Assembly: GCA_035577985.1 (NCBI GenBank)
Contig: DATJZY010000025.1
Coordinates: 1-64,000, forward strand
Source of the DNA: Candidatus Eisenbacteria bacterium
Lineage (GTDB): Bacteria; Desulfobacterota; Binatia; DP-6
DNA length: 64,000 nt
Direction of reading: 5' to 3'
This document shows positions 6,306 to 9,262 of the stretch, piece after piece. Numbering within the stretch: position 1 is the first letter of the stretch; every line of letters begins with the position of its first letter. Below the pieces are notes generated by a model that saw nothing but the letters and a program-made list of their open reading frames with translations, had not been told where the DNA came from and did not search any database. The position numbers were made by a program, and so were the translations under genes.

Positions 6306-7076
6306 TCAGGCGCGACGGCCGGCGATGAGCCCGTCGTCGATCCAGCGCGCGAGTAGCGCCCCCGCCTGCTCCGCCGCGGCCTCCGGACTCGCGTGTGCGG
6401 CCACGGCTTCGCAGATCTCCGCGAACGTTCCCCCCGCCGTGAGGACGGCGAGCGCGTCCACTTCGAGCACGTCGATCGCGGCGTGAAAGACGGCGAAGTC
6501 CTGCCGCCACACGCGAAGCCGGGTCGGCCGCGCAGCGACGTCCGTGCGCTCCGGCGCCGCCCAGACTTCGTGGGCGGGCCAGTCGCAGCGAAGGATCTCG
6601 AGCGCCGCGATCGGGTCGAAGCGGAGATCGCCCCACTCCTGCGGTGCGATCGCGCAGAGATCGGTGGCCCGCATCGCGACGGCGTCGGGCGCGTCGAAGG
6701 CGTTCACCCTCGCCAGCTCGAGCCGCGCGAGATCGCCGAGCCACGCGCGCGATCTTGCGAGCTCGTCGCCGGCGAGGAAGGCGGGAAGGTGGCGGCCCAG
6801 GTGTCGCACCGACGGATGCTCCGAGGGATGCGCCACGACGTAGCGGCGCGCGAGCGCGTCGAAGTCCTCGCCGAGCGCCTCGTGCGTCTTGGGGTAGTCC
6901 TCGCGCAGCACGGAGACGAGGCGCCAGACGTACATGTCCTGGTAGATCCCGATGCGCGCTCCGGGCTCGAGCGACGCCGTCGGCAGCACGGTCGAGACGA
7001 GTCCTGCGTCGGGCTCGCCCGTGTGGAGCGAGCGCCAGAACCCGGCCTGGATGTCACGCAGATCGGGCACAGGCAT
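6306..7076 (-). CDS. bufC: BufC/HvfC family (DUF2063) RiPP maturation partner
   Basis: 256 aa. The N-terminal ~95 residues match DUF2063 (HvfC N-terminal domain): LRDIQAGFWRSL, IGIYQDMYVWRLVSVLREDYP, VAHPSEHPSVRHLGRHLPAFL. The C-terminal part ends in a winged-helix-like segment (DALAVLTAGGTFAEICEAVA). In bufferin systems BufC acts with the DUF692 enzyme BufB, probably presenting the precursor peptide to it. It is the last gene of arsS-bufA-bufB-bufC and overlaps the end of bufB by 23 bp, so translation is likely coupled. It converges with the WPFSF gene at 6292. The family call is firm; the molecular role is from the literature on relatives. Confidence 0.88.
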   Translation of the reverse strand: MPVPDLRDIQAGFWRSLHTGEPDAGLVSTVLPTASLEPGARIGIYQDMYVWRLVSVLREDYPKTHEALGEDFDALARRYVVAHPSEHPSVRHLGRHLPAFLAGDELARSRAWLGDLARLELARVNAFDAPDAVAMRATDLCAIAPQEWGDLRFDPIAALEILRCDWPAHEVWAAPERTDVAARPTRLRVWRQDFAVFHAAIDVLEVDALAVLTAGGTFAEICEAVAAHASPEAAAEQAGALLARWIDDGLIAGRRA

Positions 7077-7902
7077 CGACCAGCACCTCGGCCTCGGCGG
7101 CGCGGGCGCGCTCGGCTTCGGTGAGAACGTCTTCGAACGGCGGAATGTGGTCGTCCCACTCGACGAGCGTGGAGATGCGACCGAATCGGCGCACGGCGGA
7201 GCGATAGAGGTCCCACACCTCGGCGCGCACCGGATGATCGTGCGTGTCGAGCAGGTGGGTGCCGTTGTCCGTGTGGCCGGCGAGATGGATCTGGCCGACC
7301 CGCCCGACCGGAATGCCCGCCAGATACTCGTAGGCGTCGAAGCCGTGGTTCACGGCCGACACGTAGATGTTGTTGACGTCGAGCAGGATGCCGCAATCGG
7401 CGCGCTCGGCGACCGCCGCGAGGAACTCCCACTCGGGCATGGTCGAGTGCGCGAACGCGACGTAGCTCGACACGTTCTCGACCAGCATCTGCCGCCCGAG
7501 CCTCTCCTGGACCACCTGTACGCGCCCCACGACGTGCGCCAGCGCCTCGTCGGTGTACGGCAGCGGCAGGAGATCGTGGGCATAGTGCTTGCCGTAGTTT
7601 CCCCAGCAGAGGTGATCGGAGATCCATGCCGGCTGATAGCGCGCGGCGAGCGCACGCAACTCGACGAGATAGGCGTCGTTCAACGGATCGGTCGCGCCGA
7701 GCGAGAGCGACACGCCATGCAGCACGATCGGACGCTCGGCGCGCACGCGCTCGAGCACGTGGAGCGGGCGCCCGCCGCGCAGCATGAAGTTCTCGGAGAT
7801 GACCTCGAACCAATCCGCGCGCCGGCCGTCGTCGAGGATGGCCGGGTAGTGCTGCGGTCGCAGGCCGACGCCGTGACCGAGGTAGGGAACCGAGATCGCC
7901 AT
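7054..7902 (-). CDS. bufB: BufB, DUF692/MNIO multinuclear iron RiPP-modifying oxidase
   Basis: 282 aa TIM-barrel enzyme of the DUF692 family (multinuclear non-haem iron oxidases). In bufferin pathways such enzymes convert precursor cysteines to thiooxazole-type copper ligands. Motifs in order: GVGLRPQHY (10-19), WFEVISENFM (31-40), LHGVSLSLG (61-69), SDHLCWG (95-101), VENVSSY (141-147), LLDVNNIYVSAVNHG (173-187), QIHLAGH (204-210), DTHDHPV (219-225) and LVEWDDHIP (246-254). Together they supply the His/Glu/Asn/Asp metal ligands of the family, and none appears missing. ATG 7902 gives the conserved start MAISVPYLGHGVGLRP; longer in-frame starts would run into bufA. It sits 49 bp after bufA and overlaps bufC. 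Confidence 0.93.
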   Translation of the reverse strand: MAISVPYLGHGVGLRPQHYPAILDDGRRADWFEVISENFMLRGGRPLHVLERVRAERPIVLHGVSLSLGATDPLNDAYLVELRALAARYQPAWISDHLCWGNYGKHYAHDLLPLPYTDEALAHVVGRVQVVQERLGRQMLVENVSSYVAFAHSTMPEWEFLAAVAERADCGILLDVNNIYVSAVNHGFDAYEYLAGIPVGRVGQIHLAGHTDNGTHLLDTHDHPVRAEVWDLYRSAVRRFGRISTLVEWDDHIPPFEDVLTEAERARAAEAEVLVDACARSA

Positions 7903-7951
7903 GACGTCGAACGCGGGCTCCGGACCGCATGGCCCGGAGCCCGCGCCGTGA

Positions 7952-8221
7952 CTAGTGCTTCTCGCCCTCGACGACCTTGCCACCCTTGGTCTTGCAGTCG
8001 GCCGCGGAGGCCTTCACGTTGCCCTGGCCCTTGCAACCGTTCTGGCCGGCACAGGAGTGCCCGCCGCCGGCGCACGTGCCCTGTCCCTTGCACGCATTGA
8101 TGCCCGAGCAGGTCACCTGATCGCCGCCCGCCTTCTCTTCGGCCCGGGCCGTGACGGCGCCCGAGAGGAACAACGCGGCGGCCGCGCTGGCGATGAGAAT
8201 CCCCGTGGTCTTCTTGGTCAT
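7952..8221 (-). CDS. bufA: BufA2-type bufferin precursor (periplasmic metallophore RiPP)
   Basis: 89 aa precursor. The Sec-type signal peptide is residues 1-27 (core ILIASAAAALFLSGAV, cleavage after ARA). The mature region has six cysteines at 38, 44, 50, 57, 63 and 76. Two copies of a repeat are visible: CSGINACKGQG (38-48) and CAGQNGCKGQG (57-67). This is the C-x-G-x-N-x-C-K-G-x-G pattern of BufA2-type bufferins, thought to be modified on Cys by BufB/BufC and then to bind copper in the periplasm. A strong AGGAGGAGGAG precedes ATG 8221. A possible -10 (TCTAAT on the minus strand, 8265-8260) lies in the 63 bp after arsS, so bufA may have its own promoter. Confidence 0.9.
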   Translation of the reverse strand: MTKKTTGILIASAAAALFLSGAVTARAEEKAGGDQVTCSGINACKGQGTCAGGGHSCAGQNGCKGQGNVKASAADCKTKGGKVVEGEKH

Positions 8222-8284
8222 GATTCGTCTCCTCCTCCTGTTGGAGTGTTGGTTGCCCGATTAGACGCCGCGGGCCTCCCGGCG

Positions 8285-9262
8285 TTACACGATCGCGCCG
8301 CCGCAGCCCGAGCCCGCCCCGGCCGTGCAGCCGAAGCAGTGGGACCCCGTGACGATGCGCTCGTCTTCCAACGTACGGACGTCGTCCAGCTCCCAGATGG
8401 TCCGGGGGCCCCGGGCGCCGATCGCGAGGTCGAGCATCTGGTTGAAGTCGCAGTCGTAGAGCTTGCCGTCCCATCCGACGCTCACGAGGTGACGGCACAT
8501 GAGGCCGGGGATGGTGGCGGTGTTGAAGTGGTTCACGAGCAGCCCCATGTATCGATCGTGCTCGCCCGTACGGGCGAGGTCCGCCGCGAAACGGGCGATG
8601 GGCATGTTGGTTATGGTGCGGAGCGCGTGGAACTCGATCCCGAAGTGGCGCCGGAGCTCCTCGTGGTAGCGCGCTTCCAGCTCGGCCTGCATGCCGGGCA
8701 GGAACGCGCCGACGGGATTGTAGACGAGATCCAGCCGCAGCGGTGATCCGGCGCACCCGTACCCCAGGTCGTTCAGGAGCTGCAGGGCCCGCACGCTGCC
8801 GTCGAACACGCCGCGGCCGCGCTGCTTGTCGACGTTGTCCGCCGTGTAGCAGGGCAGCGAGCAGACGAGCTCCACCTGATTCGCCCGATAGAACTCGGGC
8901 AGCCACGCCATGCCCTCGACGAACACGACGGTCAGGTTGCAGCGCACGATCACCGTCCGGCCGAGCGCACGTGCCCGTTCGACGAGACGGCGGAAGCCGG
9001 GATTCAGCTCGGGCGCGCCGCCGGTGAGATCGAGCGTTTCGAGCCCCGGGTTCGCCGCGAGGACGTCGAGCACGCGGTCGGCTGTGGCACCCGCCATGAT
9101 CTCCGTGCGCTTGGGTCCAGCGTCGACGTGGCAGTGATGGCAGGCCTGGTTGCAGAGCTTGCCGACGTTCACCTGCAGCGTGCGCGGCACCGCGCGACGG
9201 AGCCCGCCGACCCCGTTCACGGCGAGCGCGGCCTCGAAGTCGATCGGGGAGGCAAGGCCCAC
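8285..9262 (-). CDS. arsS: ArsS-family radical SAM protein (arsenosugar-type)
   Basis: 325 aa. The radical SAM cluster motif is C37-x3-C41-x2-C44 in CNQACHHCHVDAGP, followed by LDLTGGAPELNP (SAM-binding GGxP-like) and VRCNLTV. The C-terminal half is the DUF3641-type domain, ending in CFGCTAGAGSGCGG, which probably holds a second cluster. In arsenosugar synthesis ArsS transfers a 5'-deoxyadenosyl group to methylated arsenic. No arsM is present here and the next gene is the bufferin precursor, 63 bp on, so another substrate is possible. GTG 9262 is preceded by AAGGAG at 6 nt, which fixes the start. Inverted repeats lie upstream at 9316-9359. Confidence 0.88.
   Translation of the reverse strand: MGLASPIDFEAALAVNGVGGLRRAVPRTLQVNVGKLCNQACHHCHVDAGPKRTEIMAGATADRVLDVLAANPGLETLDLTGGAPELNPGFRRLVERARALGRTVIVRCNLTVVFVEGMAWLPEFYRANQVELVCSLPCYTADNVDKQRGRGVFDGSVRALQLLNDLGYGCAGSPLRLDLVYNPVGAFLPGMQAELEARYHEELRRHFGIEFHALRTITNMPIARFAADLARTGEHDRYMGLLVNHFNTATIPGLMCRHLVSVGWDGKLYDCDFNQMLDLAIGARGPRTIWELDDVRTLEDERIVTGSHCFGCTAGAGSGCGGAIV

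Follow-up and report, generated by a model that had tools for sequence, protein, structure and literature searches.

An ArsS-family radical SAM gene heading a bufferin operon, and the rare recurrence of this neighbourhood

What is the gene for an ArsS-family radical SAM enzyme doing at the head of an operon for a copper-binding peptide? The question is raised by four genes in the window, by which we mean the whole 64,000-nucleotide stretch of DNA that was analysed, on contig C25 of a genome (G000) of 5.7 Mb in 191 contigs, with a completeness of 99.5% and a contamination of 3.5%. The named relatives of ArsS that fall together with genomes of its class bear Binatia or Binatota labels, from which we take the class to be of Binatia type. 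Bufferins are copper-protective peptides with Cys-derived thiooxazoles in Buf1 and, by similarity, in Buf2 (PMC12452194). According to a review citing Cheng et al. 2021, ArsS is known to adenosylate trivalent methylated arsenic, using radical SAM chemistry. Here, we describe the operon and its relatives, and then weigh what could hold the two activities together.

Operon structure and gene identities

The four genes lie on the minus strand in the order arsS-bufA2-bufB-bufC and span positions 6306-9262. Spacers of 63 bp (arsS/bufA2) and 49 bp (bufA2/bufB) separate the first three, and bufB and bufC overlap by 23 bp. These gene calls, gaps and overlap had been reported in a first-pass annotation; all were exact on re-checking, and the family models agree with them.

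8285..9262, minus strand: arsS, first in the operon, encoding a 325-aa radical SAM enzyme (ArsS family)
7952..8221, minus strand: bufA2, encoding an 89-aa bufferin precursor with six Cys and a signal-peptide-like N-terminus
7054..7902, minus strand: bufB, MNIO (DUF692) bufferin maturase
6306..7076, minus strand: bufC, DUF2063 partner protein
9342..9359, no strand assigned: perfect palindrome TGGGTCAgacgTGACCCA with 7-bp arms, about 80 bp upstream of arsS

The arsS gene starts with GTG behind the Shine-Dalgarno sequence TAAGGAG, and bufA2 has its own, GGAGGAGGAGA. No terminator was found between the operon genes on the operon's strand, and the RNA fold of the arsS-bufA2 spacer, considered as a terminator or attenuator, was no better than that of shuffled sequences. 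GC content and codon-position bias are even across the operon and the flanking genes. This evenness on both sides of the clean 63-bp spacer speaks against a misjoin of two contigs between arsS and bufA2 in assembly or binning. The 191 contigs, the 3.5% contamination and the placement of ArsS away from its family's ArsS in the tree (below) speak for such an artefact, but the junction lies inside a 138-kb contig and similar pairings occur in other genomes, and we regard a misjoin as highly improbable.

The bufferin genes are canonical. BufA2 scored 74.7 bits against NF050166 (cut-off 60) and BufB 383 bits against NF050167 (cut-off 310), with a further match of BufB to PF05114. BufC scored 66 bits against PF09836/DUF2063 (cut-off 27.2) and 57 bits against the HvfC model NF050145, below its cut-off of 142. 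With the BufA2 and BufB models above cut-off, a DUF2063 partner and the order bufA-B-C, the operon fits Buf2. It shares with the Buf2 (Buf_6/12Cys) operons of Antoine et al. 2025 (PMC12452194) the bufA-bufB-bufC order, the MNIO, the DUF2063 partner and the six-Cys precursor with a signal-peptide-like start, and differs from them by the arsS at its head. The precursor itself has the canonical six cysteines and is like the BufA2 of arsS-free operons in the class. Loss of one Cys in the arsS-linked BufA2 of two loci (L087 and L088) was considered as a distinguishing feature and rejected, as it was also seen in arsS-free loci.

The ArsS protein is equally intact. It matched TIGR04167 at 427 bits (cut-off 300), with the model spanning it from end to end, and its Pfam content is Radical_SAM plus DUF3641 and nothing else. 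Both the radical SAM motif CNQACHHC (CxxxCxxC) and the C-terminal Cys motif HCFGCTAGAGSGCGG are present, all cysteines are kept, and S319G is the sole departure, in a column where 142 of 144 relatives agree. Among PDB entries there was only a weak match to SkfB. A single in-frame TGA, which selenoprotein forms would be expected to show, occurs in 26 ArsS matches across the phylum; the window ArsS has none.

An intact ArsS-family gene and a canonical bufA2-bufB-bufC set thus stand on one strand with short gaps, in a neighbourhood that recurs. The pairing is a real operon variant and is absent from the papers searched, in which we found none on ArsS with DUF692, nor on arsenosugars with multinuclear non-heme iron. 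The MNIO survey leaves ArsS unmentioned, and the proportions it gives for other conserved genes in bufferin clusters are extremely low (PMC12452194). The first-pass remark that no system of this make-up had been described therefore holds for the papers searched.

Upstream of arsS, the palindrome TGGGTCAgacgTGACCCA has a single match in the window (0.08 expected) and, among the loci compared, is confined to copies of this very place; it is a possible operator, of weak statistical significance. A shared promoter motif upstream of bufA2 genes was rejected, with dyad counts barely above those of shuffles. Divergent from arsS, at 9593-9937 (plus strand), lies the gene for a small protein that has a signal-like start and a CPQC thioredoxin-like motif and matches no family. 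Thioredoxin and CcdA genes stand near arsS in the annotated ArsS regions of two plasmids. Farther out, 10023-15211 (plus strand) encodes a TetR regulator, a TolC-like outer membrane protein and an HlyD-type fusion protein, followed by MacB-type ABC exporter-like genes. On the other side, a gene 0.5 kb past the end of bufC (5499-5807, plus strand) encodes a small, Cys-rich protein that has no Pfam match and starts with a signal-like stretch, and at 3133-5285 the gene for an AurF-like diiron oxygenase adjoins a divergent AraC-type regulator gene.

Recurrence and history of the neighbourhood

The class sample comprised 148 genomes: 86 of them have BufB, at 101 places, and 108 have ArsS, at 117 places. 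The two lie within 5 kb of each other (in every case within 4 kb) at seven places in six of the 148 genomes, from four genera and in several arrangements. By hand arithmetic, about 0.25 such places would be expected by chance, from 85 same-genome pairs and a target of about 13 kb in a 4.5-Mb genome; with only about three independent origins counted, the chance is near 0.002, again by hand. The first-pass annotation had proposed comparing the linkage with background, and within the class the excess is there. The outcome that it held to be refuting, ArsS beside bufABC in no other genome, did not arise: ArsS lies by bufferin genes in five other genomes of the class and, once, at the end of a gammaproteobacterial hvf operon. 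Co-presence of ArsS and BufB across class genomes is not significant (Fisher p 0.06) and the neighbour excess is seven against about 0.25; therefore, the link is local. A phylum-wide count informs little, BufB being nearly confined to the class.

Window genome: arsS-bufABC on one strand
L087 (G090): bufABC-arsS, packed on the same strand
L088 (G091): bufABC and arsS on one strand, 3 kb apart
L083 (G018, contig C75) and L085 (G037): divergent arsS and bufBC
L086 (G012) and L084 (G018, contig C90): ECF sigma-arsM-arsS, with bufABC adjoining on the opposite strand

Of these linked loci, only the window shows the exact order arsS-bufABC, and at L085 a copper-type (CopA-type) P-ATPase gene adjoins arsS. 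The link between ArsS and bufferin genes is real and occurs repeatedly, but it is rare and its gene order is loose.

In a separate collection of 80 ArsS loci, many with flanks shorter than 10 kb, one had an MNIO gene in its flanks. This locus (L168:5582-10960), from a gammaproteobacterium of the Acidiferrobacterales, carries hvfA-hvfB-hvfC, followed on the same strand by a glutamate-synthase-like gene, hvfX and arsS; a TIGR04283 gene (arsenosugar glycosyltransferase family) lies on the opposite strand. Like the window, this hvf (oxazolin) locus has arsS running in the same direction as copper-RiPP genes that include an MNIO and its partner; it differs in that its precursor is HvfA/EGKCG rather than BufA2, arsS comes last, after hvfX, and TIGR04283 is nearby. 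No bufferin genes adjoin ArsS in three annotated plasmid regions (a fourth, L306, is unannotated), and in B. glumae arsS and an MNIO gene are about 22 kb apart.

In the ArsS tree, the window protein falls in a clade of 28 rows with support of 99/98, which holds all bufferin-linked class ArsS placed in the tree, together with many unlinked ones and some that are ArsM-linked; its exact position inside the clade is weakly supported. It does not stand beside the ArsS proteins found elsewhere in its family (G001; G002, G005, G006). The window BufB, on the other hand, is closest to that of G001, a member of the same family, at 79% identity. Because ArsS sits apart from its family's ArsS while BufB is nearest to that of its family, the pattern fits a later gain of arsS ahead of a resident bufABC, as judged from tree placement; differential loss may be an alternative history.

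These data also bear on whether the genes are incidental neighbours, with arsS brought in by transfer or rearrangement, perhaps sharing a transcript but having no joint role, and the excess reflecting the clustering of metal-resistance genes. The arrangement varies among loci, the window order occurs once, other members of the window's family have arsS and bufABC apart, and the window ArsS does not group with the family's. Chance adjacency accounts poorly, however, for seven places against about 0.25 expected and for the same-strand packing at the 63-bp gap here, in bufABC-arsS at L087 and in hvfX-arsS at L168. We consider incidental neighbourhood rather unlikely.

ArsS without ArsM

The first-pass annotation noted that no arsM was in reach; this is right and extends to the entire genome, in which three ArsM models (NF040538, NF008823 and NF038099) found none. 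With a lax threshold, nothing beyond partial, generic methyltransferase-like stretches came up; a divergent ArsM could slip under the thresholds of these models. The same three models found no ArsM in the four ArsS-carrying members of the family. The lack of arsM in G000 and these four, together with the separation of the window ArsS from its family's in the tree, is odd. ArsM is also absent, by two models (NF040538 and NF008823), from 33 of the 108 ArsS genomes of the class, complete genomes included, and the control Synechococcus elongatus has ArsS and no ArsM match at the thresholds used. Many ArsM-like NF008823 matches in the class contain one in-frame stop (TGA, TAG or TAA), which may reflect either matches that extend beyond the end of the gene or split genes.

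None of the usual partners of ArsS lies within 5 kb of the window arsS. Such partners are customary for ArsS and no firm requirement, given the 33 of 108 ArsS genomes without ArsM. In the A. portensis (Acinetobacter portensis) plasmid, an example of an ArsS arsenosugar cluster, arsS is followed by TVP38/FAD oxidoreductase, DUF547, TIGR04283, TIGR04282, methyltransferase and phosphate transporter genes; the window shares with it an ArsS-family protein with intact motifs, but has bufABC after arsS instead, in a genome without arsM. Within 5 kb of the ArsS-only loci of the class (n=48), we found FAD oxidoreductase (17), ArsM (12), TIGR04283 (10), DUF547 (8), phosphate transporter (5) and ECF sigma factor (5) genes, and within 5 kb of bufferin-only loci (n=46) genes for ECF sigma factors (16) and a probable anti-sigma protein (11). 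The FAD oxidoreductase, ArsM, TIGR04283 and ECF sigma clusters were named by model from one member; for the DUF547, phosphate transporter and anti-sigma clusters, naming relied on visual inspection or on resemblance to the annotated plasmid operon. TIGR04283 is encoded in G000 on a different contig from arsS, and most of the 148 genomes also have it.

An ArsS that lacks ArsM might act on some other small substrate, another metalloid or a thiol compound, rather than on arsenic or a peptide. The 33 class genomes and S. elongatus are in keeping with this, but the ArsS motifs are unchanged, TIGR04283 genes adjoin ArsM-less ArsS in G001 and G027, a divergent ArsM may be missed, and methylated arsenic may be external. 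Altogether, a changed small substrate seems quite unlikely.

Shared substrate or shared regulation

The first-pass annotation offered two readings, a second modification of the bufferin peptide or a dual metal/metalloid response. In the first, ArsS would be a second bufferin maturase, acting on BufA2 before or after BufB-BufC to give a doubly modified peptide. There is precedent for the enzyme pairing in clusters for other peptides: the biphenomycin-like pbs cluster encodes an MNIO together with a radical SAM enzyme that is B12-dependent, crosslinks ortho-tyrosines and has been shown to act on the peptide (PMC12257519). Radical SAM enzymes are also cited as having a role in thio(seleno)oxazole RiPPs. 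The window genome has no arsM; G018 and G090 have two ArsS genes apiece, and in both genomes it is the copy without arsM that lies closest to buf genes.

Against a second maturase, BufA2 is the same as in arsS-free operons. ArsS has no Pfam match to a SPASM or RRE (PqqD-like) domain and is far from the thio(seleno)oxazole maturase SbtM (TIGR04082, 19.4 bits against a cut-off of 350). No residue marks bufferin-linked ArsS, clade signal being all that was seen; ArsM-linked members share the clade, and ArsS and ArsM occur together at two linked loci (L084, L086). Two further loci keep arsS, bufB and bufC without an intact bufA2, which is gone at L083:7400-8600 and a frame-broken remnant at L085:4100-4800. 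Because G018 and G037 have further bufA2 genes on other contigs, the maturases at these two loci may act in trans. We judge a second maturase distinctly improbable. An extended form, in which ArsM-free ArsS would have been recruited more than once to bufferin-type operons and would act on the MNIO-modified Cys peptide, or load it with an organoarsenical, to give a doubly modified metal/metalloid-binding peptide, is just as doubtful. A second peptide modification is thus disfavoured, and a dual metal/metalloid response is favoured by gene context.

What we find probable, by a modest measure, is that a resident Buf2 operon gained arsS at its 5' end and now forms one metal/metalloid-stress transcription unit, in which regulation and not substrate would be held in common. 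After arsS joined the copper-binding RiPP operon, arsS and bufABC would be co-transcribed. ArsS would retain its known reaction, arsenic adenosylation; BufB and BufC would modify the BufA2 cysteines, and exported BufA2 would buffer copper. With arsM missing from the genome, the surroundings would have to supply the methylated arsenic. ArsS and bufferin would then answer to common regulation while acting on different substrates.

The evidence for a shared stress operon includes the geometry, the ribosome sites, the even GC, the lack of a terminator and the intact ArsS motifs. Linked loci carry arsM and ECF sigma genes (L084, L086) or a copper-type P-ATPase gene (L085), and ECF sigma genes lie near bufferins at 16 of 46 loci and near ArsS at 5 of 48. 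The seven linked places against about 0.25, and L168, with arsS after hvfABC-hvfX and TIGR04283 nearby, also argue for it. Against it stand the lack of an ArsM source of methylated arsenic, the absence of the usual ArsS neighbours nearby, the lack of a shared promoter motif and the genome-level Fisher p of 0.06.

If the operon is one unit, it would tie copper buffering by a RiPP to organoarsenic chemistry and offer a tangible starting point for finding out what the many ArsM-less ArsS enzymes do. An action of ArsS on the peptide, should there be one, would give the ArsS family a new role. In either case, the linked loci form a small natural set of arrangements for comparison.
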